Positions 41,907-63,648 of a stretch of 64,000 nt of DNA are shown here, piece by piece (the stretch's first letter is position 1; each line of letters opens with the position of its first letter). The notes beneath the pieces were generated by a model. That model was not told the origin of the DNA. It saw only the letters and a list, made by a program, of their open reading frames with translations, and searched no databases. A program made the translations under genes and the position numbers. This stretch comes from Antedon bifida (Eukaryota > Echinodermata > Crinoidea > Comatulida > Antedonidae): assembly GCA_963402885.1 (NCBI GenBank), contig OY727096.1:8007501-8071500 (forward strand). The letters are read 5' to 3'.

Positions 41907-43364
41907 ATGATGGCATTACAAAATCTTTGCCTTATGACATGTTTACTAATTATCAGAGCAACTGCAGTAGAAAAAGATGTTGAATTTGATTACGTTTATG
42001 AAACCAATGGGTCAACTCCGTTCATCATCAGTATCGTAAAGTCAACTAAAATGTACAATGGTACACTTACTGATCATCGGTATATATTCGGTGATAAGGG
42101 AGTACTCACAAGCTACCCTGTCGAAAAGTCAACAACAGTCAACTGCCAACATTTTATATGTTACGAACCACTAGATGTAGGAATATACACATGTCAAGAT
42201 GAAGATAACAAGTCTTTTGTGATTCCTTCAGGTGGTGTTACTCAGAAACAAATAACAGATTATTCTCCGTTGAAAATTGTTTGTGAAGATTTAGTAGATT
42301 ATATCATAGAGGGTGAGGAAATAGCAACTGAATGCAGGGTGAAATGTATAGGAGGAACGGCCAATGGTTACAAAATAACAATTGGATGGATCCAAGGAAA
42401 ACATGACATTATACAGTCTTTCGATTTAAAGCATAATATGAATTTCAATCAAACGCTTAAAGGCTACCACGGTGGAGATGGAATATTCTTTTATTGCCTT
42501 AACATCTACGACACACACAAATGCTATACATTGACTCTAAAGGTTTATCCTAAACTGAATTTGAAAATGATGACAATACATGAAAACCGTGAACATTGCT
42601 TTAAATGCCTAGCTACAGGTGGATCTGGTCCAAAGAATTATCAATGGACTTCTGATGTATTATTGGAGACAGGATACAATGGGGAGAATGACGATGAAAG
42701 ATGTTTTAATGACTTAACTACTGGTGAATACACTGTCAAGTGTCTTGTAACTACTGCAGCTCAAAACAAGTCAGGTGAGATCAAATTCACAGTAGCAGAT
42801 GCTGAAAATTCTGATAATGATGTCATCATCATAATATTGATAGTGACAAATTGCTTACTTTTGTTGGTTGTCATGTTATCGCTCTATATAATTCTTATAA
42901 GAATTTTCAGTGAACACTCAAAAAGGAAAAGAAGTCACCAAGACATTATTGAAACTTCAAACAGCAGACAACAAATAGAAGCACAATTTCCAAAAAACAA
43001 AACAAGGAAAGCAGACGCTGACAAGAAACAAGTGAGACCAAAGCAAGCAGGGGACAAGTCCAGACTGAAAGTTAAAAAAATAACTGAAAAATTTGAGTCC
43101 CGCTGTCGAAATGAATGTAATGGGTTGGAGGGAGAGCAACCTTCAACAAGTCAACAGGTAGTGAGATCAAAACCAACAGAATCAAAATTTAAGAAAAAAG
43201 AAAAACTTGCAAACTATGATGAGGTTTTCACAAATGAATGTTACGGTCTCCACTTCAATGCCATCAACGGATTGCAGAAAGTTGAAAAAAAGAAACTAGG
43301 AGATACAGTGGATGAATACGTTACAACTACAAACATTCCCTATTATATGGAATTTACAGAATAA
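41907..43364 (+). CDS. Ig-like type I membrane receptor 1 (family unrecognised)
   Basis: 485 residues in one exon. Residues 1-20 form a signal peptide. Ig-like region 1 ends with DVGIYTCQ (Cys 96). Region 2 (about 122-215) has Cys 143, the core Trp in IGWIQ (161) and GDGIFFYC (197). Region 3 (about 216-296) has HCFKCLATGGSG, Trp 247 and GEYTVKC (279). The membrane helix is about 306-334, followed by the basic stop-transfer SKRKRS. The 150-residue tail is Lys-rich and holds the QPSTS motif and a C-terminal DTVDEYVTTT with YYMEF. The tail end resembles receptor 6 (DTVDDYLTT). The ectodomain is the most divergent of the array. A poly(A) signal AATAAA lies near 43530. Ig folds and surface location are well supported. 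A recognition or immune role is inference from architecture only. Confidence 0.88.
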   Translation: MMALQNLCLMTCLLIIRATAVEKDVEFDYVYETNGSTPFIISIVKSTKMYNGTLTDHRYIFGDKGVLTSYPVEKSTTVNCQHFICYEPLDVGIYTCQDEDNKSFVIPSGGVTQKQITDYSPLKIVCEDLVDYIIEGEEIATECRVKCIGGTANGYKITIGWIQGKHDIIQSFDLKHNMNFNQTLKGYHGGDGIFFYCLNIYDTHKCYTLTLKVYPKLNLKMMTIHENREHCFKCLATGGSGPKNYQWTSDVLLETGYNGENDDERCFNDLTTGEYTVKCLVTTAAQNKSGEIKFTVADAENSDNDVIIIILIVTNCLLLLVVMLSLYIILIRIFSEHSKRKRSHQDIIETSNSRQQIEAQFPKNKTRKADADKKQVRPKQAGDKSRLKVKKITEKFESRCRNECNGLEGEQPSTSQQVVRSKPTESKFKKKEKLANYDEVFTNECYGLHFNAINGLQKVEKKKLGDTVDEYVTTTNIPYYMEFTE

Positions 43365-43841
43365 ATGAACAACAGCAATATTACTATTATTATTATTGTA
43401 AATAATTATTATGAATTGTACCAAAGAATATATCAGAAAGAAAGAGTAACCCACGATCTTTGCATTGGAAATGTGTAATGCTTTTAAAAGAGCATGTGGA
43501 TACCTGCTCTCATCCTCATATAAAGACTAAATAAAAAGCATATTTGCAATTAAATTTTCATGTAAATGTAAATTGTTTTAATAACAATATTGTACATTGA
43601 CTTCTGAAAAAAAAAATTCTTTTTCCCCATGCTAAAAATTAAATTGCAAAAAAAACTTTAAACAAACAGCAGCCTAAAAAAAATCAACCATTGCATTACC
43701 AGCATGTTCTATTCTTTGGCATTGCAGTAAATTAGGTGATCTGCATCCAGACGTATGCGGTGTGCTACAAAATGGGAGACCATTATCATCATTCTTCTGT
43801 TACATTCTTTGATTCTATTATAATGATGCTAAACTAATATC

Positions 43842-44006
43842 GTATATCCTCGGGTATAATCCCACTGCGGGTCTAATCCCTCCTCATTATGACTTATCCC
43901 CACGTATAGTCCCAGTATTGGCGTTTGGTAGTCCCACCCCAAAAGTCGGCCCAATTTTGTGTTCTAGGGGGAGGGAGACATGGGATTATACCAGCAGAGG
44001 ATATAC
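43842..44006. mobile_element. MITE family 4 (about 165 bp)
   Basis: The left end GTATATCCTCGGGTATAATC is mirrored by GATTATACCAGCAGAGGATA followed by TAC. The interior is C/G-rich with several TAATCCC / GGGATTA pieces. Confidence 0.75.
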
Positions 44007-44394
44007 AGTAATAGGCTTGATAATACTCCACAAGATTATTTATTTGTCCTTGGCATTGGCAATTATACATAAAATACATTAAACATAAAATAACATGAAG
44101 TGATGAAAATAGACAAAAGTATGTTTACAAGAATGTTACTTTAATACTTTATAAAATATTCTTAAAACTTTAAAATATTTATAAAATATGTTGTACTATT
44201 GTTTAAATAAAAAATAGACATGGGTAAAAAATGAATTATGATATGTTCTTGTGATCAACATTTATAAATGTAGGGAAACCATTTAATTCAAAAATAAGAA
44301 ATTGTAAGATAGAAATAAAGTTCTGAATAAATTGGAGCTTTAAATATAGATAATATTGTACGTCATTCTTATATAGCGCTTAAAGTCACAAAGT

Positions 44395-45363: not shown

Positions 45364-45416
45364 GTTCCTTATTGCAGAGAATTTTTATTTCATATCTTAT
45401 TTCCTTTAATTGCAAA
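45364..45416 (+). promoter_or_regulatory. Upstream TTCCTTATTGCA elements of receptor 2
   Basis: GTTCCTTATTGCAGAG (45364) and TTATTTCCTTTAATTGCAAA (45397-45416) resemble the exact ATTTCCTTATTGCAAA found upstream of receptors 3, 5 and 6. They lie 90-145 bp before the start codon. Confidence 0.4.
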
Positions 45417-45506: not shown

Positions 45507-47225
45507 GTGAACAAAGAAGTGATGATGATGTCTTTGCATATTATCTGTCTGATAGTTTTCACCTTGTTACTTGTCAGATACAATATTGCAGAAAAAAGTT
45601 CTCTAGAGTTTTCACACTTTTTATCCTACAAGTTTGAATCACAGGAGGAGCATTCTGTGACAATTGTAGAATCAAATGCAACCTACCAGCTTCCACTGAC
45701 AGCAGAAGATAAGGAACTGAAAATAATCCCATGCCAGCTATTCATATCTTTAAATGAAGAACAAGATAAAGGAATATACACATGCCAAGGCGATAACCAC
45801 AGATACTATCTGAAACCATCACAAAATCTAGAGACTGCATATCTACAACCTGACGAATGCATAATGACTTGTGAATTACCAAACATTATTGAAAAAGAAG
45901 AAGTAACATTTCCTTGTGAAATCAAGAAGATGAATTCAAGTGAAATCACAGTTGGATGGATCCAAAGGCATCACCACAGCGTACAAATCTACAGTGAACC
46001 AACATTTGATATAACTTTAAGAGGTTTTTATTTTGAAGAAGGTATATTCTTTTATTGTATAAAATATACTACCGGTTATGATGTCTGCTGTACATTAACT
46101 TTAAAGGTCATGCCAAAGTTAATAGTAAACATCACATCTTTACATAGCACAGATGAATTCTTTGGATACTACTGTTTTGAATGTCATGTGACAGGTGGAT
46201 CCAACAAAACAGTTTATAACTGGAGAGTAAATGAAATAAGCTGGGGTGATGATGATAATAGTGAAACAAATAAAAAATGTTTTAATGAATTGTCAGCTGG
46301 TGAATATACTGTCAGATGTCTGGTGAGTACTGATGCTCAGAGTGTCTCAGGTGAGATGAAATTCAGTGTAATACATATCAAACAATTGTCAAAGACAACC
46401 AAAGATGGTGAAGAAGATGATGATGAGAATGAACGCAAGGAAGATGACAATGACAAGTTTTATTTCAAAATATACATAATAACTATAGCAACCACAATTA
46501 TAATATTACTATGTGTGGTTTTACTTTACTTATGGAAAAAAAACAAAGGTATTCAACTCCCTCCTGAACAGCAAAGAAATGATGCAAATGTTCAGGGCAT
46601 TTCTGGAGGTTCACAGACCATGGCAGACGATAACATATATCATACAATTAATGATATATCATATGCTGCTGAGAATGACATTGTCAATACAAATGCAGAA
46701 ACTAACGATGGAGAAAATGAAAAAGATGGAAACAGAGAAGAGGGCAACAGACAAGGTGACAACCGACGAGAAGGCAATGGAGAAAATGGCAACAGAGAAG
46801 ATGGGAACAGACAAGGTGACAACACACAAGATGGCAATGGAGAAAATGGCAACAGAGAAGATGGAAATAGAGAAGAAGGAAACATAAAAGAAAGCTATAG
46901 AGAAGAAGGCAACATAGATAATGACAACATAGAAGTTGGCAAAATAGAAGATGGCAACATAGAAGATGGCAACAGACAAGATGGCAACATAGAAGATGGA
47001 AAAAGAGAAGATGGCAACATAGAAGATGGTAAAAGAGAAGATGGCAACATAGAAGATGGTAAAAGAGAAGATGGCAACATAGAAGATGGTAACAGAGAAG
47101 ATGGCAACATAGAAGATGGTAAAAGAGAAGATGGTTACAGAGAAGATGGTAACAGAGAAGATGGTAACAGAGAGGATTGCAACATAAATACTGAAGCACC
47201 TCACTATTTTGTTCTTGAGTTATAA
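45507..47225 (+). CDS. Ig-like type I membrane receptor 2, pentapeptide-repeat tail
   Basis: 572 residues, single exon. The start is ambiguous: Met 1 or Met 6-8, the latter aligning with MMSFL of receptors 3 and 5. A signal peptide ends near NIAEKS. Three Ig-like regions are marked by DKGIYTCQ (Cys 93), then Cys 137, VGWIQR (Trp 151) and EGIFFYC (Cys 184), then YCFECHVTGG, Trp 239 and GEYTVRC (Cys 271). An acidic stalk (EEDDDENERKEDDND) precedes the helix at about 321-343. The tail has NIYHTI and a long repeat (about residues 402-560) of the pentapeptide [E/Q]DG[N/K][R/I], ending NTEAPHYFVLEL. The repeat is highly charged, has no hydrophobic residues apart from Ile, and is probably disordered. 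The 3' two-thirds of the gene and its downstream flank are duplicated at 53516. Function unknown; receptor inferred. Confidence 0.88.
   Translation: MNKEVMMMSLHIICLIVFTLLLVRYNIAEKSSLEFSHFLSYKFESQEEHSVTIVESNATYQLPLTAEDKELKIIPCQLFISLNEEQDKGIYTCQGDNHRYYLKPSQNLETAYLQPDECIMTCELPNIIEKEEVTFPCEIKKMNSSEITVGWIQRHHHSVQIYSEPTFDITLRGFYFEEGIFFYCIKYTTGYDVCCTLTLKVMPKLIVNITSLHSTDEFFGYYCFECHVTGGSNKTVYNWRVNEISWGDDDNSETNKKCFNELSAGEYTVRCLVSTDAQSVSGEMKFSVIHIKQLSKTTKDGEEDDDENERKEDDNDKFYFKIYIITIATTIIILLCVVLLYLWKKNKGIQLPPEQQRNDANVQGISGGSQTMADDNIYHTINDISYAAENDIVNTNAETNDGENEKDGNREEGNRQGDNRREGNGENGNREDGNRQGDNTQDGNGENGNREDGNREEGNIKESYREEGNIDNDNIEVGKIEDGNIEDGNRQDGNIEDGKREDGNIEDGKREDGNIEDGKREDGNIEDGNREDGNIEDGKREDGYREDGNREDGNREDCNINTEAPHYFVLEL
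46725..47180 (+). repeat. 15-bp coding minisatellite in receptor 2 tail
   Basis: The unit GAAGATGGCAACATA and variants (GAAGATGGTAAAAGA) run about 30 times, often as an alternating 30-bp pair EDGNI-EDGKR. Other frames and the reverse strand stay open by composition, which produces spurious long ORFs. Confidence 0.92.
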
Positions 47226-50200
47226 ATTAAATTATTTTATAATAAATACTGTCAAAATGTTTCATACTATTATTTATGTTTGATTTGATTTGATTAGTTT
47301 TATGTACAGTATATCTTGAACTGTATCATTATTTAGAAAAACATTTTGCTTTTAAATGTATAGAAGAAAAGCATGCATATTTTTTATACAATAGTTTTGT
47401 TATAATTAACAACATTTTTGGAGAACAACTTTGAATACAGTAATAATTACTGTATAAAAGTATGTGCCAGAAAAAGAATGTCGGAAAACTACATTATTGT
47501 AGGTTGAATGAAAGCTTACTTTCCCAATAACAAAGTTATCGGAAAAATTAATGAAGACTTTATTTTAATTTACGTGTTTAAATTCGTGTTTGATATTCTT
47601 GAATAAAAATACAATTACAAATAATATATATTTTGTTATCTGAATTATTTATATTATGCATCATAGACACTCTGTAGTTGTATATAAAAAAATCATCTCA
47701 CAGTGATAATCATTTTTTTTAAAACAGAGATCATTCAGGTACATCCGATAAATTGATTAAGTTAAGCTAAGTTATGGCAATGTAATATAATTATAAAAAA
47801 TATGTACTATTTATATTGTATATATATATATCTTGACTTTGCATGGATGTGGGTGGGAAAATAAATGTATTTAAGTTTCAATTTTGTTTTCTATGTTTGT
47901 TGTGTTTGTATTGCTTTGTACATTGTTTTTACAGGTTTTTCATTGTACGCCCATCATTTTAACTTTGCGATATTTAAACAGTGACAGCTTTATTTCAATA
48001 ATTGATTATAAGCTGTTGTTAATTATTGTGATATTTTTCTTTTAATTAACTAATTTGAATGTTACTAATTTTCAGTTTATTAATACAGCAACATAGCATT
48101 AATATGTATAAGTTGTTGAGTATTTATAATATAGAAATGTTGAGAATAATAATTATACTAATAATATTAATTATTTTGTACTTTAAATTTTATGTAAATG
48201 ATATCTGAGTTTGCTTCAGTTTCGATGTTTACCTACTGTATTTGCAATTGTAATAATTCAAACATTTACAAATAAAGTAATACATACTGTAAATTGCTGA
48301 TTATAATAATTTGAGAATAGTAATTAATACTAATGTAAAATAGTAAAATATAATTATAATGTGGGTTTTGCCTTAAGATGCTTGGACAGGTTAATAATTG
48401 GCACAGTGGGCAAAACATCTTTCGCATTCTAGAGGGCAGTATGAAATGCTGCAATATTATAAATAATTTGCATTATACTACAACAAATCACTTATATTTG
48501 CAAAGAAATGTCAATAAAAAAAAATTTGTCAATTTGTGTGCAATTAAATTAAACTGTTTATATGGTTGAGTGTGTTTATAGCTTTTATTAGATAGCCAAT
48601 GTATAGTAAATATGTGAACGTGATTAGTCGAAACTGCATCACATGACTACCGTTGCGAGGACCATAAATCGTATATGTCGAGTATGATGATATTGACTGA
48701 GTAATTTTCGCATGATTATCGTGTCCTGGTCATTAAACATACAAAACCCAGCAAATTCTCGAGGAGTTTAATATTGACTGTGTAATTTGCGTGTGGCAAA
48801 TAACGTTTGCACCCTCATTTTGTTATTCACCCTCTATAGATGTGACAAAAGACCATTTGTGATTAGTCAATACTCACAGGAGGTATGCATAGCATGCTGA
48901 ACATCTGCTCAAAGAAGATGAATTATTATTATTAATAATTAATTCGGCCTACTAGCATTATTAGTAATATATCATTATTAGTGTAGGATTATTGATGGAT
49001 TTCTTTTGGAATTCTTGGAAGACTATAATGGTATGACTTAGACTACCAGATGATACCTAAAACCAACAAGGAAGGAAACCAAAATAAACAAGAAATATTT
49101 CTTACAAAAAACGCTGCTTGCTTATTGACACAACAGTTTTAAAGATATATTGCCCCTCTGAAAAATATTTTTTATTTCAAATTTGTTTTTGAATGTGTCA
49201 TTTTATTGTCACATAATAGTTATTTTACTTGAAAAAAATGTAATTAAAAGCAAAAAATACTTCAATTGTCTGTCAGACAATGGTTTTTGAGTTATAATTA
49301 AATGTTTCTTTTCTCTTTTTATAATGTGAATTTTGTTACAGAAGTGAATAACTTTGATATGAAACACAGACTCAATTTAGTTTATTTTATTGCTAAGGTC
49401 AAGTCTGGGGGTCACTTCATCAGGCCTAGATACTTCAAGTGTAAAGTATCCTATTACAAACAAAAACTTTCATGGACTGTTTTGATAATAATTCAATGAT
49501 TATCTGACAGTGAATTACAGTATTATATAATGTCATGGGACTCATAAATACCAGAAATGCTTTGGGATTTGTCATTCAACTATTAGACTCTTTTCCCAGA
49601 CGTTTTTTGGATCCAGCAGCTGGTAGTTATAAATTATAGTCGAGAATCCTTTTTCGCAAAAATGTCAGTGTCTACTACTACTCTACTACTAGTACTGCTG
49701 CTTGCTTTCATCTAATAAATGAGTCATATCTTGTGACGTAGCGGGCTAGAGCAGCAGCGTGAAAACCACCAGGAAGACGAAAAAATAACTGGATGACACA
49801 AATAAAAATATAAAAAAATGTAGATTTATGTACACAATAACAAACCATCCCACCCTACACAGAAACAAATGAAAACAAATCATAAACGTAATATCCGAGT
49901 GCCGGAAAACGTTAATCATAGAGAAGAAATATATGTATATCAAATACTTGGATATTTCATTTTGTATTGACAACCATTTTTAATAAATCAATGCATGTGA
50001 TGTGATCAAATGCAAGGATTACTATGTTTTACCAATGTTTTACCCGTATTAAACTTCATATTGCTGCAGTAATTATTTCTGTCTTTGAATATTATAAACC
50101 ACATTTTAAGACATGCTGCTGATTAGTTCCTGTTTACAAAACCTTACATGTTTTGCAATCTGTTTTTGTTTTATTTCCTTATTGCAAAACATTTACACTA

Positions 50201-50275: not shown

Positions 50276-51463
50276 ATGATGTCATTCCTTAATGTCATAC
50301 CTCTAGTGGTCATCAGTTTGTTACTCTTCAGATACAATATCGCAGAAGAAAGTTTTGTACAGTATCCATATTATTTTAAATATGGAAAACATGGGGAGCA
50401 TTCTGTGACAATCGTAAAATCAAGTGAAACATACCAGCTTTCACTGACAGAAGTAAAAGAAGGTAAGGAACTGAAGTTGAAAACAGTCACATGTCAGCTG
50501 TTGATATCTTTCAATAAACAACAAGATGAGGGTATTCACACATGCCAAGATGATGATGACAGACACTATCTGGTTCCTTCACAAAACTTAGATAAGAAGG
50601 ATGTGAGCAATAATGATGAATGCATATTAACTTGTGAATTACCAAACATTATTAAGGAAGAAGAAGTAACATTTTCTTGTGAAATCAAGAATGAACATAT
50701 GTGTCAAATTACAGTTGGATGGATCCAAAGGGATCGTCACCACAGCCTAGAGATATACAATAGAAGGGAGTTTGATATAACATTGAAAGGTTTTTATCCT
50801 GGAGAAGGTATATTCTTTTACTGTAATTATTTTACTTCATATTATTCTTATGTCTGCTACACATTAACTTTAGAGGTTAAACCTAAATTAATTGTAAACA
50901 TCAAACCTTTATGTACAGCTGATAAAGACTTTGGATTGTACTGCTTTAAATGTGAAGCTACGGGTGGTTCTGGCGAAAAAGTTTATTACTGGGAACTAGA
51001 TGGAGAAAAGTTGGTTAATTACAGCAATGAACAGTGCTTTAATGGCTTGCCCGCTGGTAATTACATTGTCAAGTGTCTGGTGAATACTGATGCTCAGATT
51101 GTCTTTGGTGAAATAGAATTCAATGTACAAAATTATTTAACAACCAAGTCAATAAAAAAGGAAGATAGTCATGGCAAGTTTTATTATATAATATTCACAT
51201 TGGCTACAACAACTACAATACTACTATGTGTTGTAATTGTTTTACTTTACCTACAAAAAAGAAACAGACAAAGGTCAAAGTCAACAGATAATAAATCAAC
51301 AATTGCAAACCATGTTGAGGTCATTACAAATGGTTCAACTGAATATCAAGAACTTCAAATCAAGGAATCATTGGATGCTGAAGACTACCTGAAGCCTATG
51401 GACATATACATGCATTTAAAAATGGGTACACCACCCTCTCCCATAAGCGAGCAACAGAAATAA
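50276..51463 (+). CDS. Ig-like type I membrane receptor 3, short YxxL-containing tail
   Basis: 395 residues, single exon. Signal peptide about 1-24. Ig-like region 1 ends DEGIHTC (Cys 90). Region 2 has Cys 135, VGWIQR (Trp 149) and GEGIFFYC (Cys 183). Region 3 has YCFKCEATGGSG, Trp 239 and GNYIVKC (Cys 267). The membrane helix is about 303-326 with no charged residue. The 65-residue tail lacks the pentapeptide repeat and instead carries YQEL (357-360), YLKP (371-374) and YMHL (378-381). Two YxxL motifs 17 residues apart are reminiscent of ITAM or hemITAM signalling but exceed the usual 6-12 spacing. The ectodomain and helix are almost the same as receptor 5, but after KRN the tails are unrelated. 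The upstream ATTTCCTTATTGCAAA is present. A role in tyrosine-kinase signalling is inference. Confidence 0.88.
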   Translation: MMSFLNVIPLVVISLLLFRYNIAEESFVQYPYYFKYGKHGEHSVTIVKSSETYQLSLTEVKEGKELKLKTVTCQLLISFNKQQDEGIHTCQDDDDRHYLVPSQNLDKKDVSNNDECILTCELPNIIKEEEVTFSCEIKNEHMCQITVGWIQRDRHHSLEIYNRREFDITLKGFYPGEGIFFYCNYFTSYYSYVCYTLTLEVKPKLIVNIKPLCTADKDFGLYCFKCEATGGSGEKVYYWELDGEKLVNYSNEQCFNGLPAGNYIVKCLVNTDAQIVFGEIEFNVQNYLTTKSIKKEDSHGKFYYIIFTLATTTTILLCVVIVLLYLQKRNRQRSKSTDNKSTIANHVEVITNGSTEYQELQIKESLDAEDYLKPMDIYMHLKMGTPPSPISEQQK

Positions 51464-51705
51464 GAATTGCATTATTAAATTATATTAACAATATAACAAA
51501 TCAAATCTTTATCTTGATTATTGTAACTGTGCAAATACAAAGATACGATGATGGTACAGTACAAACATCTTGTTTATTATTCCTCAAGCTCCTTCCTATA
51601 CAACCAATAAAAATATCAAATTTCTTTATGTGTATAATGTTTTGTATAGCTAATAAAAAAAAAACAATAATCAATTATTAATATTTAATTCATAGCTTAT
51701 GTTGA

Positions 51706-53050
51706 GAACAATACCTTATTACCGGCGTACCAATCTGCCTATCGGAAAGGTTTTAGCACAGAGACGGCTTTGGTTAAGTTAACCAATGACGTACTCTGGA
51801 ATATGGAGTTGCAAAGGGTGACTGCGCTGGTATGTATAGACTTGTCAGCCGCCTTCGACACAGTGGACCACGAAGTACTCCTCAACGTTTTGCATAACAA
51901 ATTCGGAGTGGCCAATGCGGCATTGAACTGGTTTGATACTTACCTTCGTCCTCGATTTGCCAACGTAACAATCGGCGAAACTAACTCGGAGACAGCCAAT
52001 TTGTCCTTCTCTGTACCTCAGGGTAGTATATGCGGTCCAGTTCTATACACCATATATGCCAGCACTTTACAAGATCACATCAGTAAGTTTGATATTTCTG
52101 TGATGGGATATGCCGATGATCACTCAGTGTATGATTCATTTAATCCAAATTCTAGTTCTAGTATGGTAAATACAATCACCAAATTACAAGAGTGCCTCAT
52201 ATCCATCAACGACTGGATGAAGTCCAACAGACTAAAAATGAACAGTGAAAAAACAGAGTTCATACTATTGGGAAGCAGAGCTCAACTCCTGAAATGCGAG
52301 AAAGATCATATCATCGTATGTCAGGACAGAATACCACGTGGTTCATCTGTAAAATACCTTGGTGTTAATATCGACGACCAGCTATCTTTCAAGAACCATA
52401 TACGCGATAAATGCAGAACGATAGCTGTTAATTTATACTATATTCGTCAAATTCGCAAATTTCTCTCCAAGGACCTTTGCCAACAACTAGTTCAATCGCT
52501 CGTGCTGTCACATATTGATTACGCCAATGCATTGTATTATGGTCTACCTGCTAATACCCTTGCTCCAATGAAGAGGTTACTGCACCAAGCTGCGAAAATA
52601 ATTGTCAGGAAAGGTCGGTATGACAGTGCAACTAACGCCATGCGATCCTTGCACTGGCTTCCGATGTCTCATAGATGTCAATTCAAAATAGCGTGTCTTG
52701 TATGGCGTTCGCTTAAAGGTTCCGCTCCAAGTTACCTGAGAGATATTCTTACTGTGCGGAATGTTTCTCGCAGTACTCGTTCAAGCACCAGCAATTATAA
52801 CCTGACAATCCCACGAACTAAACGAAAGACATTTGCTGACCGTTCGTTCGCCGTAGCAGGACCCAAAATTTGGAACAGTTTACCAAGTCACATTAAACAC
52901 TTAGACGACTATAATCAGTTTAAAAAACATTTAAAAGCACTATATTTCAAACAATGTTACGATACTAATTGATGTGAAGCGCCGCTGATTATAATTAAAT
53001 GTTGTATAAATGTGCGCTATACAAGTAATAATAATAATAATAATAATAAT
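51706..53050 (+). mobile_element. CR1/L2-type LINE, 5'-truncated, reverse transcriptase largely intact
   Basis: The open frame runs from about 51706 (LLPAYQSAYRKGFSTETAL) to a TGA at 52972. Motifs in order are DLSAAFDTVDHEVL, SVPQGSICGPVLY, the catalytic GYADDHS, MNSEKTEFILLG, VKYLGVNIDDQLSF, LHWLPMSHRCQFKIA and KIWNSLPSHIK. The endonuclease domain and ORF1 are missing, so it is a 5'-truncated insertion. The 3' end is GCGCTATACAAG then (TAA)n at about 53028-53050. An undamaged frame over 420 codons implies a recent insertion. It lies between receptor 3 and the duplicated pseudogene. Confidence 0.93.
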
Positions 53051-53440: not shown

Positions 53441-53515
53441 CATTCCCTACGTTTTTTAGATCAAATTCAAGGTCGCAAACTGCATTTAATGTAAAAACAA
53501 ATACTATATGGTCCT
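53441..53515. mobile_element. Left end of the CATTCCCTAC transposon, cut at the duplication junction
   Basis: CCCATTCCCTACGTTTTTTA and the next bases to TACTATATGGTCCTAT match 34541-34619. At 53516 the sequence switches without a gap to receptor-2 coding sequence. Confidence 0.8.
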
Positions 53516-54844
53516 ATCCAAAGGCATCACCACAGCGTACAAATCTACAGTGAACCAACATTTGATATAACTTTAAGAGGTTTTTATTTTGAAGAAGGTA
53601 TATTCTTTTATTGTATAAAATATACTGCCGGTTATGATGTCTGCTGTACATTAACTTTAAAGGTCATGCCAAAGCTAATAGTAAACATCACATCTTTACA
53701 TAGCACAGATGAATTCTTTGGATACTACTGTTTTGAATGTCATGTGACAGGTGGATCCAACAAAACAGTTTATAACTGGAGAGTAAATGAAATAAGCTGG
53801 GGTGATGATGATAATAGTGAAACAAATAAAAAATGTTTTAATGAATTGTCAGCTGGTGAATATACTGTCAGATGTCTGGTGAGTACTGATGCTCAGAGTG
53901 TCTCAGGTGAGATGAAATTCAGTGTAAGACATATCAAACAATTGTCAAAGACAACCAAAGATGGTGAAGAAGATGATGATGAGAATGAACGCAAGGAAGA
54001 TGACAATGACAAGTTTTATTTCAAAATATACATAATAACTATAGCAACCCCAATTATAATATTACTATGTGTGGTTTTACTTTACTTATGGAAAAAAAAC
54101 AAAGGTATTCAACTCCCTCCTGAACAGCAAAGAAATGATGCAAATGTTCAGGGCATTTCTGGAGGTTCACAGACCATGGCAGACGATAACATATATCATA
54201 CAATTAATGATATATCATATGCTGCTGAGAATGACATTGTCAATACAAATGCAGAAACTAACGATGGAGAAAATGAAAAAGATGGAAACAGAGAAGAGGG
54301 CAACAGACAAGGTGACAACCGACGAGAAGGCAATGGAGAAAATGGCAACAGAGAAGATGGCAATGGAGAAAATGGCAACAGAGAAGATGGCAACAGACAA
54401 GTTGACAACACTCAAGATGGCAATGGAGAAAATGGCAACAGAGAAGATGGAAATAGAGAAGAAGGAAACATAAAAGAAAGCTATAGAGAAGAATGCAACA
54501 TAGATAATGACAACATAGAAGTTGGCAAAATAGAAGATGGCAATATAGAAGATGGCAACAGACAAGATGGCAACATAGAAGATGGAAAAAGAGAAGATGG
54601 CAACATAGAAGATGGTAAAAGAGAAGATGGCAACATAGAAGATGGTAAAAGAGAAGATGGCAACATAGAAGATGGTAACAGAGAAGATGGTAACAGAGAA
54701 GATGGCAACATAGAAGATGGTAACAGAGAAGATGGTAACAGAGAAGATGGTAACAGAGAAGATGGCAACATAAATACTGAAGCACCTCACTATTTTGTTA
54801 TAATATATACTGTCAAAATGTTTCATACTATTATTTATATTTGA
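53516..54844 (+). pseudogene. Ig receptor 4: 5'-truncated, stop-shifted copy of receptor 2
   Basis: Begins in the middle of Ig-like region 2 (IQRHHHS) directly after transposon sequence. Signal peptide, region 1 and half of region 2 are missing and no upstream in-frame ATG exists. From there it matches receptor 2 nearly codon for codon (a His-flanking Ile-to-Arg, a Thr-to-Pro in the membrane helix). The pentapeptide tail differs in repeat number, with an added GENGNREDGN-type block and one less EDGKR pair. At the end a deletion of roughly 28 bp removes the original stop after HYFV, so the frame runs on for about 11 more residues to TGA at 54844. Without a start or signal peptide it is unlikely to make a surface protein. 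Confidence 0.9.
54270..54772 (+). repeat. 15-bp coding minisatellite in pseudogene 4
   Basis: Same unit as in receptor 2, with different copy number and order, so the array has slipped since duplication. Confidence 0.9.
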
Positions 54845-56564
54845 TTTGATTTGATTAGTTTTATGTACAGTATATCTTGAACTGTATCATTATTTAGAAA
54901 AACATTTTGCTTTTAAATGTATAGAAGAAAAGCATGCATATTTTTTATACAATAGTTTTGTTATAATTAACAACATTTTTGGAGAACAACTTTTAATACA
55001 GTAATAATTACTGTATAAAAGTATGTGCCAGAAAAAGAATGTCGGAATGAAAGCTTACTTTCCCAATAACAAAGTTATCGGAAAAATTAATGAAGACTTT
55101 ATTTTAATTTACGTGTTTAAATTCGTGTTTGATATTCTTGAATAAAAATACAATTACAAATAATATATATTTTGTTATCTGAACTATTTATATTATGCAT
55201 CATAGACACTCTGTAGTTGTATATAAAAAAATCATCTCACAGTGATAATCATTTTTTTTAAACAGAGATCATTCAGGTACATCCGATAAATTGATTAAGT
55301 TAAGCTAAGTTATGGCAATGTAATATAATTATAAAAAATATGTACTATTTATATTGTATATATATATATATATCTTGACTTTGCATGGATGTGGGTGGGA
55401 AAATAAATGTATTTAAGTTTCAATTTTGATTTCTATGTTTGTTGTGTTTGTATTGCTTTGTACATTGTTTTTACAGGTTTTCCATTGTACGCCCATCATT
55501 TTAACTTTGCGATATTTATACAGTGACAGCTTTATTTCAATAATTGATTATAAGTTGTTGTTAATTATTGTGATATTTGATCTAATTCTTTTCTTTTAAT
55601 TAACTAATTTGAATGTTACTAATTTTCAGTTTATTAATACAGCAACATAGCATTAATATGTATAAGTTGTTGAGTATTTATAATATAGAAATGTTGAGAA
55701 TAATAATTATACTAATAATATTAATTATTTTGTACTTTAAAATTTATGTAAATGATATCTGAGTTTGCTTCAGTTTCTATGTTTACCTACTGTATTTGCA
55801 ATTGTAATAATTCAAACATTTACAAATAAAGTAATACATACTGTAAATTGCTGATTATAATAATTTGAGAATAGTAATTAATACTAATGTAAAATAGTAA
55901 AATATAATTATAATGTGGGTTTTGCCTTAAGATGCTTGGACAGGTTAATAATTGGCACAGTGGGCAAAACATCTTTCGCATTCTAGAGGGCAGTATGAAA
56001 TGCTGCAATATTATAAATAATTTGCATTATACTACAACAAATCACTTATATTTGCAAAGAAATGTCAATAAAAAAAAATTTGTCAATTTGTGTGCAATTA
56101 AATTAAACTGTTTATATGGTTGAGTGTGTTTATAGCTTTTATTAGATAGCCTATGTATAGTAAATACGTGAACGTGATTAGTCGAAACTGCATCACATGA
56201 CTACCGTTGCGAGGATCATAAATCGTATATGTCGAGTATGATGATATTGACTGAGTAATTTTCGCATGATTATCGTGTCCTGGTCATTAAACATACAAAA
56301 CCCAGCAAATTCTCGAGGAGTTTAATATTGACTGTGTAATTTGCGTGTGGCAAATAACGTTTGCACCCTCATTTTGTTATTCACCCTCTATAGATGTGAC
56401 AAAAGACCATTTGTGATTAGTCAATACTCACAGGAGGTATGCATAGCATGCTGAACATCTGCTCAAAGAAGATGAATTATTATTATTAATAATTAATTCG
56501 GCCTACTAGCATTATTAGTAATTTATCATTATTAGTGTATGATTATTGATGGAAATTCTCGGAA

Positions 56565-57204
56565 GACTAAAATGGTATGACTTAGACTGAAATGGTATGA
56601 ATTAGACTGAAATGGTATGAATTAGACTGAAATGGTATGAATTAGACTGAAATGGTATGAATTAGACTGAAATGGTATGAATTAGACTGAAATGGTATGA
56701 ATTAGACTGAAATGGTATGAATTAGACTGAAATGGTATGAATTAGACTGAAATGGTATGAATTAGACTGAAATGGTATGAATTAGACTGAAATGGTATGA
56801 ATTAGACTGAAATGGTATGAATTAGACTGAAATGGTATGAATTAGACTGAAATGGTATGAATTAGACTGAAATGGTATGAATTAGACTGAAATGGTATGA
56901 ATTAGACTGAAATGGTATGAATTAGACTGAAATGGTATGAATTAGACTGAAATGGTATGAATTAGACTGAAATGGTATGAATTAGACTGAAATGGTATGA
57001 ATTAGACTGAAATGGTATGAATTAGACTGAAATGGTATGAATTAGACTGAAATGGTATGAATTAGACTGAAATGGTATGAATTAGACTGAAATGGTATGA
57101 ATTAGACTGAAATGGTATGAATTAGACTGAAATGGTATGAATTAGACTGAAATGGTATGAATTAGACTGAAATGGTATGAATTAGACTGAAATGGTATGA
57201 ATTA
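56565..57204. repeat. 20-bp minisatellite, 32 near-perfect units
   Basis: The unit GACTGAAATGGTATGAATTA runs for 640 bp. The first unit differs at two bases and the others read as identical. The paralogous site in copy A (49021-49040) has one unit. The 20-bp period puts stops in every frame, so it is non-coding. Confidence 0.97.
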
Positions 57205-58277
57205 GACTACCAGATGATACCTAAAACCAACAAGGAAGGAAACCAAAACGAAAATAAACAAGAAATATTTCTTTAAAAAAACATTTTTAAAGATATATTG
57301 TCCCTCTGAAAAATATTTTTTATTTCAAATTTGTTTTTGAATGTGTCATTTTATTGTCACATAATAGTTATTTTACCTGAAAAAAAAGTAATTTAAAGCA
57401 AAAAATACTTCAATTGTCTGTCAGACAATGGTTTTTGAGTTATAATTAAATGTTTCTTTTCTCTTTTTATATGTGAATTTTGTTACAGAAGTGAATAACT
57501 TTGATATGAAACACAGACTCAATTTAGTTTATTTTATTGCTAAGGTCAAGTCTGTGGGTCACTTCATCACGCCTAGATACTTCAAGTATGAAGTATCCTA
57601 TTACAAACAAAAACTTTCATGGACTGTTTTGATACCAGAAATGCTTTGGGATTTGTCGTTCAACCATTAGATTCTTTTCCCAGACGTTTTTTGGGTCCAG
57701 CAGCTGGTAGCTATAAATTATAGTTCAGAATCCTATTTCGCAAAAATGTCAGTGTCTACTACTACTCTACTACTACTACACTACTGCTGCTTGCTTTCAT
57801 CTAATAAATGAGCCATCTCTTGTGACATAGCGGGCTAGAGCAGCAGCGTAAAAACCACCAAAAAATAACTGGATGACTCAAATAAAAATATTAAAAAATG
57901 TATATTTATTTACACAATAACAAACCATCCCACCCTACACAGAAACAAATGAAAACAAATCATAAACGTAATATTCGAGTGCCAGAAAACGTTAATCATA
58001 GAGAAGAAATATATGTCTTTTTTTTCGTTATGCCTAACGTTCATGTACATCAAATACTTGGATATTTCATTTTGTATTGACAACCATTTTTAATAAATCA
58101 ATGCATGTGATGTGATCAAATGCAAGGATTAATATGTTTTACCAATGTTTTACCCGTATTAAACTTCATATTGCAGTAATTATTTCTGTCTTTGAATATC
58201 ATAAACCACATTTTAAGACATTCATGATTAGTTCCTGTTTACAAAACCTTACACTTTTTGCAATCTGCTTTTATTTT

Positions 58278-58293
58278 ATTTCCTTATTGCAAA
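58278..58293 (+). promoter_or_regulatory. Conserved upstream element of receptor 5
   Basis: ATTTCCTTATTGCAAA, 75 bp before the ATG. It is part of the duplicated flank, so identity with receptor 3 is not independent evidence. Confidence 0.45.
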
Positions 58294-58368
58294 ACATTTA
58301 CACTATCTGCCACAGTTTAGAGCAGAAAGGAATATCTACAGCTGATCTACAGTAGATCTAAAGTACAA

Positions 58369-59940
58369 ATGATGTCATTCCTTAATGTCATTACTCTAGT
58401 GGTCATCAGTTTGTTACTCTTCAGATACAATATTGCAGAAGAAAGTTTTGTACAGTATCCTTATTATTTTAAATATGAAACATATGGGGAGCATTCTGTG
58501 GAAATTGTAAAATCAAGTAAAACATACCAGCTTTCACCGACAGAAGTAAAAGAAGGTAAGGAACTGAAGTTAAAAACAGTCACATGTCAGCTGTTGATAT
58601 CTTTCAATAAACAACAAGATGAGGGTGTTCACACATGCCAAGATGATGATGACAGATACTATCTGGTTCCTTCACAAAACTTTTACAAGGATCTGAACAA
58701 TGAGTATGAAAGCATATTAACATGTGAATTACCAAACATTATTAAGGAAGAAGAAGTAACATTTTCTTGTGAAATCAAGAATGAACATATGTGTCAAATT
58801 ACAGTTGGATGGATCCAAAGGGATCGTCACCACAGCCTAGAGATATACAATAGAAGGGAGTTTGATATAACATTGAAAGGTTTTTATCCTGGAGAAGGTA
58901 TATTCTTTTACTGTAATTATGTTACTTCATATTATTCTTATGTCTGCTACACATTAACTTTAGAGGTTAAACCTAAATTAATTGTAAACATCAAACCTTC
59001 ATGTATAGCTGATAGAGACTTTGGATTCTACTGCTTTAAATGTGAAGCTACGGGTGGTTCTGGCGAAAAAGTTTATTACTGGGAACTAGATGGAAAAAAG
59101 GTAGTTGCTTACAACAATAGCTATAACAATGAACAGTGCTTTAATGGATTGTCTGCTGGTAAATACACTGTCAATTGTCTGGTGAGTACTGATACTCAGA
59201 ATGACTCAGATGAGAGAGAATTCAATGTACAAAATTATACAACTGCCAAGTCAATCAAAAGAGATGATAATGATGAAGATAACAATGGCAAGTTTTATTA
59301 TATAATATTCACATTGGCTACAACAACCACAATACTACTATGTGTTGTAATTGTTTTACTTTACCTACGAAAAAGAAACAAAAGTCCTCAACAGTTCATA
59401 GCACAGCAAAGAAATTATACAACTTTGCAAGGCATTTCACACACCACAACAGTCGATGAGGATATTTACTATACAGTTACTGATACAGAAGATGCTCCTA
59501 GGAATGACTATGTCATTGCAGATGTCAATCAAGAAACAAATGCAGAAACTAACAACATAGAAGAAGGCAACATAAGCAATGGTAACAGAGAAGATGGCAA
59601 CAGAGGAAAGAGCAACGGAGAAGATGGCAACATAGAAAAGACCAACGGAGAAGATTGCAACAGAGGAAAGGGCAACGGAGAAGATGGTAACAGAGGAAAG
59701 GGCAACGGAGAAGATGGCAACAGAGAAAAGGGCAACGGAGAAGATGGCAACAGAGAAAAGGACAACGGAGAAGATGGCAACAGAAGAAAGGGCAACAGAG
59801 AAGATGGCAACAGAGGAAAGGGCAACGGAGAAGATGGTTACAGAGAAGATAGCAACAGTGGAAATGGCAATGAAGAATATGGCAACAGAGAAGATGGTAA
59901 CAGAAACGAAGCCCCTCAGTATTTTGTTCTTGAATCTTAA
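58369..59940 (+). CDS. Ig-like type I membrane receptor 5: receptor-3 head, receptor-2-type tail
   Basis: 523 residues, single exon. Signal peptide and helix (about 309-333) are as in receptor 3. Ig-like region 2 differs from receptor 3 at one residue, while regions 1 and 3 carry many replacements and a 4-residue insertion (AYNNSYNN). Cys and Trp landmarks are DEGVHTC (90), VGWIQR (148), GEGIFFYC (182) and GKYTVNC (270). After RKRNK the tail switches to receptor-2 type: AQQRNYTTLQGIS (receptor 2 has EQQRNDANVQGIS), then DEDIYYTV, NDYVIADV and a decapeptide repeat GNGEDGNREK (about 398-510), ending NEAPQYFVLES. Candidate phosphotyrosine motifs are YTTL (350), YYTV (367) and YVIA (381). A poly(A) signal overlaps the stop codon. 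Recombination or gene conversion at the helix-tail border is inferred. Confidence 0.9.
   Translation: MMSFLNVITLVVISLLLFRYNIAEESFVQYPYYFKYETYGEHSVEIVKSSKTYQLSPTEVKEGKELKLKTVTCQLLISFNKQQDEGVHTCQDDDDRYYLVPSQNFYKDLNNEYESILTCELPNIIKEEEVTFSCEIKNEHMCQITVGWIQRDRHHSLEIYNRREFDITLKGFYPGEGIFFYCNYVTSYYSYVCYTLTLEVKPKLIVNIKPSCIADRDFGFYCFKCEATGGSGEKVYYWELDGKKVVAYNNSYNNEQCFNGLSAGKYTVNCLVSTDTQNDSDEREFNVQNYTTAKSIKRDDNDEDNNGKFYYIIFTLATTTTILLCVVIVLLYLRKRNKSPQQFIAQQRNYTTLQGISHTTTVDEDIYYTVTDTEDAPRNDYVIADVNQETNAETNNIEEGNISNGNREDGNRGKSNGEDGNIEKTNGEDCNRGKGNGEDGNRGKGNGEDGNREKGNGEDGNREKDNGEDGNRRKGNREDGNRGKGNGEDGYREDSNSGNGNEEYGNREDGNRNEAPQYFVLES
59560..59905 (+). repeat. 30-bp coding minisatellite in receptor 5 tail
   Basis: The unit GGCAACGGAGAAGATGGCAA, then CAGAGAAAAG, encodes GNGEDGNREK and repeats about ten times with G/R and K/D variants. 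It is related to, but distinct from, the receptor 2 array. Confidence 0.88.
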
Positions 59941-60949
59941 ATAAAATGTCTGGAATAGTGTAGTGAAAATTGAAATTTAAGAAACTAATAAGACCATTCT
60001 ATATACCACTGCGAAAAGTTTCTAGAAGTTACGCATGATTTACTGAAATTTGCCATTGCATACATTTAATATAGCAAATCTGTGCATGCGCACAATTAAG
60101 ATAAAATTGTAAACGAATTTGTTTTTTTATTGTGAATATTTATGGTATTAGAAGTATGGGTGAACCCATTTATGACTATTCAATTAATTATTGTACACAA
60201 CAATATAGAGTAGAAAAAGGAAATTAAGATAAAAATATTCTATAACTTGTTAATGTTACATTATAACATATTATATTTGAATTTACAATACATTATAGTT
60301 AATATATTACAAAATAATAACTAACTACATTCAATGTATATGATTTTTTAGACAAATTTTTGCACTGTATGTTTGAATATAATAATGCTATGTAGTTTGT
60401 AAAATAGTTTTTAAGGATGATACATATTGCAACGTTTACTTTTATTTTGTACAGTACACAGAGACTGCACTTTTACATAACTAATTACACTAGTTTCATT
60501 AACACTGTATACTTTCTAAATATTTAGCTATACTTTGGTTTTTGTTTAAAATGAAAAATAATGCATATAATAGTGTATAGTTCAATGTTGATCCAAAATA
60601 AAAAATCTCCAATATCACAATGATTCTTTTTGTTATGTTGAATTCAAGGAACTCAATAAGGAAATTTGTATTTTTAGGAAAATCAAGGGTTGAGGAAATA
60701 CAGTACATCATTTAAATGCTTGTACTGTAATTATAATTAATCTACTTATTTTTTATATAGTAAAAAAATAAATCTTGTCTGTACAGTGAGGTGAACAGCT
60801 GAACAGATCATTCAGTACATCCGATTAATTGATTAAGCTAATATATAATATATATTATATCTACTGCTTATAGTAATATAACTTGTTTATCTCGACTTTG
60901 TCTGGATGTGGGTGGTTAAAATAAATTTATTTAAGTTTCGAAAAAAATT

Positions 60950-61037
60950 TGCTTATGAAATCAAGAATGAAAATATGTGTTTTTCTTTCGAGGTTAGATC
61001 AAAATTAATTGTAGAAAACATAAAATCTTCACATATA
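60950..61037 (+). pseudogene. Relic of an Ig receptor gene (two fused pieces)
   Basis: YEIKNENMC followed directly by FEVRSKLIVENIKSSHI. In receptor 3 these correspond to CEIKNEHMC (region 2 start) and LEVKPKLIVNIKP (region 2-3 border), normally about 50 residues apart. It is a deleted remnant and shows that the family once had another member here. Confidence 0.7.
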
Positions 61038-61255
61038 AATAAGTGTAACTTCATTCTGTTTGGGACACCTCAAAAGTTAAAAAACATTGACATTGAATCT
61101 CTTTATAAAATCACCCTGGACAATGTTGGCATTCCTGCGATCAAATCTGCTAAATTTCTTGGTGTCCATCTAGACAGAGGTCTCACCTGAAATCACACAT
61201 AAAAGATTTTGAAAACAAAATCTCTAAAAGCCTTGGTATTGTCACGAGATAAGTT
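61038..61255 (+). mobile_element. Reverse-transcriptase relic fused in frame to Ig relic
   Basis: Reads KCNFILFGTPQKLKN, then IKSAKFLGVHLDRGLT. After a frame break it continues with KDFENKISKSLGIV. NFI-x-FG and KFLGV-x-LD are LINE reverse-transcriptase motifs. No catalytic part. Confidence 0.65.
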
Positions 61256-61700: not shown

Positions 61701-61814
61701 AAAAAAAAAAATGTATTTAATATTTGATAATCTTTAAACAGAGAGTTCATAAGTCTGCTTTCTTCTTGTATTTAGAAACTAGATTTTCTAATTACCTTTA
61801 CACATTTTAATATT

Positions 61815-61830
61815 ATTTCCTTATTGCAAA
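61815..61830 (+). promoter_or_regulatory. Conserved upstream element of receptor 6
   Basis: ATTTCCTTATTGCAAA, with a second variant TATTTCCTGATTGCGAATGC about 50 bp downstream. A GGAATATCTGCAG block follows near 61952, matching GGAATATCTACAG of receptors 3 and 5. This flank is outside the segmental duplication, so the match is informative. Confidence 0.55.
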
Positions 61831-61998
61831 TAAACCAAGCAAAACTAGTTTAGTAACAATGTATTTCCTGATTGCGAATGCATTTATTTGCAGTTCTTCC
61901 ACAAAAGTAAAAACATCCATCTCAATTTTATGTAATTATCAAAAACAAGAAGGAATATCTGCAGTATAGACTGTAATAGACATAAAGGTGGAGACAAA

Positions 61999-63648
61999 AT
62001 GTTAGTGATTCACGTCTTTATTATTCTAGTTTTCAGCTTGTTACTTTTCAGACATAACATTGCAGAAAACAGCACTTACTCTTTCATATCATACACAGAA
62101 GTAATTGTGACAATAGTAAAATCAAGTGAAACATACCAGAAGCCACAACATACAGCAATTGAAGAGGATCTTAAAGGTGTTAAATGTGAGCTTTTCATAT
62201 CTTTAAATGAGCAACAAGATAAAGGAATACACACATGTCAAGACGATGCGGGTAGGTACCATCTGGCTCCTTTACAAAATGTAGATGCTGAATCTATGCC
62301 TTCAAAATGCGTAACAACTTGTGATATACCAAACATCATTGAGGGAGAGGAAGTAACATTTCCTTGTGAGATCATGACTGTGTGTAAAGTCACAATTGGA
62401 TGGATTCAAAGAAATAACTACAACATACATCACTACAATGATTTGAAGTTTAATATGACTTTGAAAGGGTTTCATTCTGGAAAAGGCATATTCTTTTACT
62501 GTAGTTATTATGCTATTCAACTTGGATATTTCTGCTACACATTCACATTAGAAGTTAGAAAAAAATTAATTGTAAACATTAAACCTTCACATACAACAGC
62601 TAAAGACTTTGGCTTCTACTGCTTTGAATGTCAAGCTACCGGTGGATCTGGCAAAAAGGTTTATAACTGGACATTAAATGGTGAATACTTGGCTGATCAA
62701 TATAAATGGTGCTTTAAGGGATTGTCAGCTGGTGGTAACATTATACAATGTGTCGTGACTACAGATACTCAGATTATCTCAAATATGGTAGAATTGGATT
62801 TAGCAAGTTATACAAAACCAGCAGATGGTACGGGTACAACTAATTTCAGCATCTATTTTATTTTATTCATATTAACTGGCAGTGCCACATTACTTTTTGC
62901 CGTATTCATATTCCTTTATTGCATGTATCGCAAGAAAATACATGACGAATATTCTATCAGACTTGATGATATTTCTAAAACTTTCAGAAGGCAAAAAACA
63001 GAACCACAAGAAATATATATTAATAAAGACAAAGAAGCTTCATGTATCAAATCTGAAAATGAAATTTATTACAGTATTAAAGATGACGATCAACCCTCAA
63101 CAAGTAAAGAGAGGGAAGTAATAATATCTCAAGCAGAAAATGAAATGTGTAATTTTAAGAAAAAAGACACAATAGTAAATGATCATGAAAACATATATTA
63201 TAGCATTCACGATGATGATGATGATGATGATGATGATTATCAATCTTTGAAAAGTAGACCGACAGAAACAGTGAGAGTCAACCAAGCAGATGATGAATTT
63301 TATACATCTACAGTAGAACAACTTGAAGATGTATATTATTATAGCATTACATATGATGATGATGATGATCAACCTTCAACAAGTAGACAATCAGTAAGCA
63401 ACAAGCTAGAAAATAATGAACCAAGGAAAAACAGAAAAATGACAAATAAAATCAAACATTTTGGGCAGTTTACAAATTCTAATTGTGGTTATAGCTTTGA
63501 TGTCACCAATGAATCTCAAACAAGTGAAGAAAAGAAAACAATAGATGAATATGATGATACAGTTGACGACTACTTGACAACAATGGAGCTAAACAGCAAA
63601 AAAATATATAGTAACAATGATGACGATTACTTAGAAATTATACCATAA
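61999..63648 (+). CDS. Ig-like type I membrane receptor 6, repeated IYYSI modules in tail
   Basis: 549 residues, single exon. Signal peptide about 1-23 (ends NIAENS). Ig-like region 1 ends DKGIHTC (Cys 80). Region 2 has FPCE (Cys 123), IGWIQR (Trp 135) and KGIFFYC (Cys 168). Region 3 has YCFECQATGGSG, Trp 224 and a C-terminal Cys 251. The helix is about 283-308, followed by MYRKK. The 240-residue tail is acidic. It holds three related modules, NEIYYSIKDDDQPSTS (from 354), HENIYYSIHDDDD (from 396) and EDVYYYSITYDDDD (from 443), plus YQSL (414), YLTTM (525) and YLEI (544). Poly-Asp runs come from GATGAT microsatellites. DTVDDYLTT near the end matches receptor 1, which makes these two the same tail class. 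Many tyrosines in YxxI/L context suggest SH2-domain docking (inference). No known protein was recognised. Confidence 0.88.
   Translation: MLVIHVFIILVFSLLLFRHNIAENSTYSFISYTEVIVTIVKSSETYQKPQHTAIEEDLKGVKCELFISLNEQQDKGIHTCQDDAGRYHLAPLQNVDAESMPSKCVTTCDIPNIIEGEEVTFPCEIMTVCKVTIGWIQRNNYNIHHYNDLKFNMTLKGFHSGKGIFFYCSYYAIQLGYFCYTFTLEVRKKLIVNIKPSHTTAKDFGFYCFECQATGGSGKKVYNWTLNGEYLADQYKWCFKGLSAGGNIIQCVVTTDTQIISNMVELDLASYTKPADGTGTTNFSIYFILFILTGSATLLFAVFIFLYCMYRKKIHDEYSIRLDDISKTFRRQKTEPQEIYINKDKEASCIKSENEIYYSIKDDDQPSTSKEREVIISQAENEMCNFKKKDTIVNDHENIYYSIHDDDDDDDDDYQSLKSRPTETVRVNQADDEFYTSTVEQLEDVYYYSITYDDDDDQPSTSRQSVSNKLENNEPRKNRKMTNKIKHFGQFTNSNCGYSFDVTNESQTSEEKKTIDEYDDTVDDYLTTMELNSKKIYSNNDDDYLEIIP

Follow-up and report, generated by a model that had tools for sequence, protein, structure and literature searches.

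A stretch of 64,000 nucleotides from the crinoid Antedon bifida (the window; contig OY727096.1, positions 8,007,501 to 8,071,500, or G000:C9:8007501-8071500 in our notation) carries a tandem array of related genes at 41907-63648, and the question raised by this locus is what these genes encode and what their products might do for the animal. An initial annotation, made from the letters of the window, had proposed an unrecognised family of immunoglobulin (Ig)-type membrane receptors resembling those of immune or allorecognition clusters, and its guess at a coelomocyte-bearing animal fits the echinoderm host. As a whole, that interpretation is partly supported by the analysis presented here. We favor, at a probability of roughly 60%, the reading that the array belongs to a multigene family, expanded in this lineage, of type I membrane recognition receptors that are encoded by single exons and signal through their own tails, most likely in self/non-self or pathogen recognition.

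Open reading frames (ORFs) together with homology confirm the inventory first described (Table 1). The forward strand carries five intact genes, each in a single exon, arranged head to tail with a 5'-truncated copy and a short relic. At the base composition of window positions 41001-64000, a run of 395 open codons has a probability of ~1e-15. By Kyte-Doolittle hydropathy, each intact gene encodes a hydrophobic segment at the N terminus and a single transmembrane (TM)-like segment after the ectodomain, and G1 was recovered in the genome search as a 100% match at G000:C9:8049407-8050861. Homology between G4 and G2 begins only at G2 residue 146, continuing at 93.8% identity, and G4 consequently lacks the signal peptide and domain 1. 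The relic was recognised from residues 17-49 of its ORF, which match G6 (E 6e-4) and G3/G5 (E 0.025) in a blastp search whose database held the six window proteins only; the remainder of that ORF resembles, by eye only, a piece of reverse transcriptase, and had no Pfam match at E 0.1.

Table 1. Features of the receptor array, in window coordinates.
Feature	Position	Strand	Description
G1	41907..43364	+	intact, 485 aa; most divergent member of the array; tail ~161 aa
G2	45522..47225	+	intact, 567 aa; tail with NIYHTIND motif, EDGNR coding minisatellite and C-terminal HYFVLEL
G3	50276..51463	+	intact, 395 aa; private tail of 66-72 aa
LINE (long interspersed nuclear element)	51687..53050	+	RVT_1 ORF 51770-52972 (Pfam E 1.4e-22); TAA run 53026-53050; left edge inferred from onset of multi-copy sequence, right edge set at end of TAA run
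G4	53498..54844	+	pseudogene; 5'-truncated G2 copy beginning inside domain 2; altered C-terminus
G5	58369..59940	+	intact, 523 aa; near-duplicate of G3 ectodomain, G2-type tail
Relic	60948..61052	+	short receptor remnant inside ORF 60906-61190
G6	61999..63648	+	intact, 549 aa; tail ~243 aa with NEIYYSIKD, ENIYYSIHD and further Tyr sites
Duplicated segment	45960..51266	+	copy at 53516-59380; pieces 95.6%, 90.9% and 90.0% identical; G2+G3 gave G4+G5
15-bp coding minisatellite	46723..47184	+	30.8 copies, within G2 tail; same 15-bp unit in G4, 54279-54770
30-bp form of coding minisatellite	59559-59904	+	in G5
TTCCTTRTTG element	50175..50184	+	before G3; others at 45365 (G2), 58280 (G5) and 61817 (G6)

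The array is real, as had been claimed, but it does not stand alone, being one of 19 clusters in the genome. Searching the assembly (315.6 Mb, 27 contigs) with G3 gave 135 candidates, of which 105 were scored, and merging of neighbours left at least 102 loci, a count that like all locus counts here is a lower bound: 48 are on contig C9, 33 on C12, 17 on C1, three on C14 and one on C7. With gaps of <60 kb the 102 loci form 19 clusters, and each of the 14 clusters with more than one member lies wholly on a single strand. At 85 of the 102 loci the frame stays open for >=340 aa and no stop interrupts the match. G1 and a distant member, used as queries in turn, each found 92 matches, which by eye fall at mostly overlapping places. 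We read the sequences of 63 loci whole and of one in part, and these contain 72 ORFs of >=100 aa that match the family profile. A signal-like start, >190 profile columns and a TM helix occur in a single ORF in 43 of them, and four more with a longer stalk before the TM segment bring those complete in one frame to 47; the others are fragments (21) or lack a TM segment (four), one fragment and one tail being cut by the end of the stretch that was read. The search was for open frames, so any multi-exon relative would have escaped it or shown up as fragments; exon structure rests on these frames, and introns in the 5' untranslated region were looked for by eye only. In a tree of 43 ectodomains most members cluster with others from their own array, so expansion was mostly local. 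The four ORFs with an ectodomain but no TM segment (G000:C12:2472509-2473525, 25918951-25919970 and 25631680-25632570; C9:8804987-8806117) are possibly secreted forms, or else truncated copies. Two copies near each other, at G000:C12:25921888-25923075 and 25926201-25927388, have identical proteins and identical 350 bp upstream; either they were duplicated or converted very recently or the assembly is at fault here.

The ectodomains carry the sequence motifs quoted in the initial annotation (GIYTC / GWIQ...GIFFYC / CF-C-ATGGSG...W...GEYTVKC), which proved largely invariant. Eleven Cys, together with W146 and W234, are the same in all 40 aligned members (the 40 having been chosen as intact), and these residues include two Cys-Trp-Cys cores, C132, W146, C179 and C221, W234, C266, whose assignment to Ig strands is our own. 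Domain 1 has a DxGxYxC-like stretch. When AlphaFold2 was run with G3 as query, residues 93-261, corresponding to domains 2-3, reached predicted local distance difference test (pLDDT) scores mostly of 57-91 and the rest stayed <50; with G2 as query, all three domains were strand-rich (model m034870f861e0, mean pLDDT 77, predicted template modelling score 0.69). Foldseek was run against PDB and the top 50 of each match list inspected. The first model had 833 matches at <1e-3, the best being CD22 d1-d3 (E 4e-7), and the others listed include antibodies, JAM and some FN3 or transglutaminase sandwiches. The second had 25 matches at <1e-3, headed by a bacterial lipoprotein with LAG3 second, then SORCS2, NTB-A, a bacterial adhesin, nectin-like 4, CD22 and others. 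In profile searches, no curated Ig profile in Pfam was matched above its cut-off by any of the five intact window genes, and at E<0.01 Ig_3 matched 8 of the 40 members (best 4.1e-6), other Ig profiles matching at most two each. Structure prediction and the fold-library search returned Ig-like sandwiches, with domain 1 the weaker, and taken with the invariant Cys and Trp they lend good support to an Ig-like fold as a prediction, though not to a particular subtype; confidence is good for domains 2-3 and moderate for domain 1.

The description of the family as unrecognised has held up, in that no window gene exceeds a curated receptor cut-off. More broadly, no receptor match above cut-off appeared among the results shown by Pfam, NCBIfam and PDB sequence searches with the window genes, family members and the family profile. 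Weak matches to TMEM154, PalH, Syndecan and Y_Y_Y were set aside, by judgement, as TM or composition matches. Pattern matches in viral contigs (74) and in bacterial and archaeal genomes (56) yielded no relative that tblastn confirmed. CEA was the sole PDB sequence match of the profile and is not significant (E 0.032); the vertebrate CEACAM/CD22 receptors, despite the fold match of one model to CD22, have no significant sequence relation to the crinoid family, whose tails lack enrichment of their inhibitory motif. No paper describing the family was found by title or opening of the abstract in the full-text literature searched, to which most subscription journals and preprints do not belong, and 'immun' occurs 0 times in the main text of the Anneissia genome paper (PMC7351957).

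The tails range from 24 to 374 aa in 43 members. The signal-like start, Ig-like regions and single TM-like segment of the build proposed at the outset are indeed common to the intact genes, but tails are not uniformly Tyr-rich, as they hold anywhere from 4 to 19 Tyr. One motif, which we call M1 ([DEGNSA][IVLA]Y[YCFHM][STEND][IVL]x[DENY], roughly E-[IV]-Y-[YC]-[ST]-[IV]-x-D), was found in 24 of 43 tails, whereas shuffled tails gave a mean of 0.06 and a maximum of 1 over 300 shuffles; the count becomes 28 of 47 when the four long-stalk members are included; [PHQE]YF[VTI][LVI] occurs in 10 of 43 against 0.03, and the looser Yxx[ILV] in 34 of 43 against a mean of 25 and a shuffle maximum of 34. 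These controls overstate significance, since the patterns were written after the tails had been read and the tails share descent. At 42 sites picked by [IVLA]Y[YCFHM], in which the residue before Tyr is fixed by the pattern, there is an acidic residue at -2 in 25 and I/V at +3 in 35. Classical hemITAMs (half immunoreceptor tyrosine-based activation motifs) have Gly before the Tyr. None of the 43 members has a charged TM 19-mer, a count that has to be read knowing that the TM windows were picked by hydrophobicity, which favors uncharged ones. Two tails, of the genes at G000:C9:6212543-6214507 and 6216340-6218277, carry several YYNIK- or YYEIKD-type modules and represent a second amplification of tail Tyr, and some tails of the C12 arrays contain tandem repeats with YVSSDTVI-like units, and four of these tails have lost the M1 tyrosine. 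In the window, the coding minisatellites (46723-47184, 54279-54770 and 59559-59904) have several frames open simultaneously on both strands.

Tandem growth, pseudogenes and variety of tails, all remarked on at the outset, are supported as well. G3 and G5 share 84% identity over the N-terminal 310 aa and diverge in their tails near 51285; searches of the genome, at the protein level and, up to ~51686, at the DNA level, located the G3 tail a single time and gave no source for it. In the C12 arrays the label of long or short tail changes at least twice on well-supported branches and three times by parsimony, whereas shuffled labels give a mean of 6.2, so that tails are exchanged occasionally, not freely. 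For eight pairs of genes, most of which were chosen for a synonymous rate (dS) that differs between domains, the longest run of identical codons was reached by 0, 1, 29, 0, 10, 93, 0 and 140 of 2000 permutations, which we read as strong in four pairs, moderate in two and weak in two; this is what gene conversion would be expected to leave, though uneven constraint may contribute. The ratio of nonsynonymous (dN) to synonymous rates, dN/dS, lies between 0.30 and 0.67 among window genes (ectodomain and TM). Pooled over 12 close pairs, nearly all of them sisters in the tree, it is 0.86 for D1, 0.61 for D2 and 0.50 for D3, and an overlapping set of 159 pairs gives 0.83, 0.63 and 0.55.

Members of the family also share an upstream element. 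Of 43 members, 19 have an exact TTCCTTRTTG in the 350 bp that precede the gene and seven more have it with a single mismatch, in the forward orientation only; the reverse strand has 0 exact and 1 one-mismatch copy, and one shuffle of each region 0 and 2, controls that overstate significance because the upstream regions share descent and many copies, coming from one C12 array, are not independent. The exact copies, which come from contigs C1, C9, C12 and C14, are located between -89 and -215. In the window, none was found within one mismatch in the 350 bp upstream of G1. The complement has a GGAA core, several copies run on as TTGCAAA, and the element may resemble ETS and C/EBP sites.

An immune or allorecognition role is what this architecture and genomic arrangement would suggest. 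A signal peptide would export each protein so that three Ig-like domains are displayed at the surface, with variability tending to be greatest in the membrane-distal one, and a single uncharged helix would cross the membrane. Because the helix is uncharged, no charged-TM adaptor of the DAP12 kind would be needed, and signalling would proceed through the receptor's own tail, most likely by Src-family phosphorylation of the YxxI/V tyrosine in its acid-flanked motif followed by recruitment of an SH2 protein. Classical signalling by immunoreceptor tyrosine-based inhibitory motifs (ITIMs) was dropped on account of the tail counts given below, and a hemITAM/Syk-like or other core-tyrosine route seems likelier. 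Diversity would come from tandem duplication, from gene-conversion-like exchange among neighbours and from replacement of the tail under a conserved ectodomain, while growth of coding minisatellites would multiply tail tyrosines in some members. The most likely setting would be recognition of self/non-self or pathogen ligands on coelomocytes or epithelia.

Several results weigh against this reading, and they touch each of its parts. For the fold, domain 1 has no obvious B-strand Cys and was unfolded in the AlphaFold2 run with G3 as query; of the five G2 ectodomain models, three scored just 54-56 against 77 and 76 for the other two; Foldseek places non-Ig sandwiches alongside Ig ones, at low whole-chain template modelling scores; and the non-Ig profile Y_Y_Y matches 16 of the 40 members at E 0.01, more than any Ig profile. 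For signalling, besides the generous controls and hydrophobicity-picked TM windows already described, ITIMs ([ILVS]xYxx[ILV]) occur in 7 of 43 tails where shuffling gives 8.4 on average, and so are unenriched, 19 of the 47 intact tails have no M1, and His or Pro stands in for the M1 Tyr in four members of one array. For diversification, no domain has a pooled dN/dS >1, so that positive selection on the ectodomain is not shown, and dN is higher in D1 than in D3 in just 7 of 12 pairs, which makes the D1-to-D3 gradient a trend only. Finally, the basis throughout is the genome sequence of one assembly.

The most serious competitor is a lineage-specific adhesion or recognition family, likewise tandem-expanded, that has a non-immune role in gamete, neural, regeneration or symbiont recognition. 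Such a role could equally use this architecture, and pooled dN/dS values <1 agree with it, but the size of the family, its load of pseudogenes, its tail exchange and its conversion-like tracts resemble immune and allorecognition clusters, and the recurrent YxxI/V motifs in the tails also argue for the latter; we consider a non-immune role unlikely. Far less probable is a mostly non-functional burst of retrocopied or tandemly copied Ig genes under weak constraint. Intron-free frames, the proportion of fragments and TM-less ORFs among those read (21 and 4 of 72) and the LINE between G3 and G4 are what such a burst might leave behind, but it does not sit well with long open frames kept at 85 of 102 loci, dN/dS of about 0.3-0.9, 13 invariant Cys and Trp (in members chosen as intact) and an upstream element common to members on four contigs.

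Comparison with known systems is by description only, and on that basis we would say that the crinoid family works by analogy like the Botryllus FcoR, Hydractinia Alr and snail PTC receptors, claiming membership in none of them. In the excerpts of its description that we drew on, Botryllus FcoR (PMC12065747) is likewise type I, with Ig domains, clustered loci and long tails bearing a hemITAM, an ITIM or a core Y-x-x-I/L/V motif, the last comparable to the crinoid YxxI/V; it differs in having IgV, sushi and two C2 domains, canonical ITIMs and, since it can be alternatively spliced, multi-exon genes, whereas the crinoid receptors have three Ig-like domains in one open frame, unenriched ITIMs and ~100 loci. 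Hydractinia Alr, as far as the available part of PMC11067881 goes, shares the single-pass topology, low mutual identity, AlphaFold-supported Ig folds and clustered paralogues with pseudogenes, but its >=41 loci lie in one genomic region, those of the crinoid (102) on five contigs. The Biomphalaria TM1, PTC1 and PTC2 clusters also encode single-pass receptors, according to the portions consulted of PMC7494358, PMC4361660, PMC11426442 and PMC10875847; many TM1-cluster members have no recognised domains or no homologues beyond gastropods or molluscs, some of those in B. sudanica have Ig, and the PTC clusters are tied to parasite resistance (PMC7494358, PMC4361660). They differ in being gastropod, in PTC1 ectodomains that are partly FN3, in tails for which those portions mention no Tyr motif (PMC7494358, PMC4361660, PMC11426442, PMC10875847) and in having introns, to judge from PTC1 loci of ~9-30 kb for ORFs of ~0.9-2 kb. 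True descent from one of these three families is the least probable alternative of all, for although published descriptions, in the parts available, show similar architecture and genomics, and G1 weakly matches TMEM154 (E 4.9e-4, below cut-off), which is reported in PTC1 and other Biomphalaria TM1 genes (some with Ig), the match drops to E 0.077 once G1 is cut just before the TM segment and so looks like composition, the 40 members matched 11 Pfam families at E 0.01, none of them the sushi domain of FcoR, and the likeness comes from descriptions, not sequence comparison.

Some observations concern the surroundings of these genes. Upstream of the array lie exons of an NRAMP (SLC11) metal transporter on the reverse strand, at 39497-39682 and 41060-41386 (Pfam E 5.4e-14 and 5e-25). 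The LINE adjoins G4 on its upstream side and is probably young, as five other sites (C1, C7, C8, C9 and C12) match its first 74 bases with 100% identity; it may have caused the truncation of G4. A 20-bp satellite has 32 near-identical copies at 56564-57208 against about one unit in the first duplicate, at about 49020-49044, and probably arose after the segmental duplication.

The mitochondrial contig of the assembly (C27, 15,844 bp) was identified by Pfam for COX1 and by frame reading and ARAGORN tRNAs for other genes; ARAGORN made 25 tRNA calls, a few surely false, and rRNAs and trnF were not located. Under table 9, its COX1 has AAA where we take Asn to be expected (e.g., RVN[N]MSFW) and ATA where we take Ile to be expected. 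The genes nad1, nad2 and nad6 and tRNAs S(tga), Q, A, V, D, T, E, L(taa), G, Y and I lie on the strand opposite cox1, the same set as is reported, in the available part of the source, for the crinoid Thaumatocrinus (PMC10013537). The composition of the coding strand (T 46.7, A 26.4, G 15.4, C 11.4%) is close to that of the crinoid Comaster (T 46.0, A 26.7, G 15.9, C 11.4%; PMC8820819). From these features we take the host to be a feather star; a snail or a hydrozoan, the hosts first thought of, was given up on reading this contig.

A bolder version of our favored reading, which we put forward tentatively and as somewhat doubtful, is that of a germline-diversified crinoid system of ~100 Ig receptors without introns, where near-identical ectodomains would be paired with different outputs through conversion and tail exchange, a new acid-flanked YxxI/V motif would signal, a common ETS/C-EBP-like promoter element would be of the kind found in blood-cell genes, and paired, KIR-like receptors would have arisen independently at the base of the echinoderms. 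The family is apparently undescribed. Large Ig-receptor families are known from few lineages outside jawed vertebrates, and the crinoid family would add one, in what the accessible part of PMC7351957 gives as the earliest-diverged living echinoderms. Its tails are directly testable for signalling, and they would bear on whether recognition by Ig domains combined with YxxI/L/V signalling goes back to the ancestral deuterostome or arose several times over. Should the genes prove truly intronless, exchange of domains and tails would here take place without exon shuffling.

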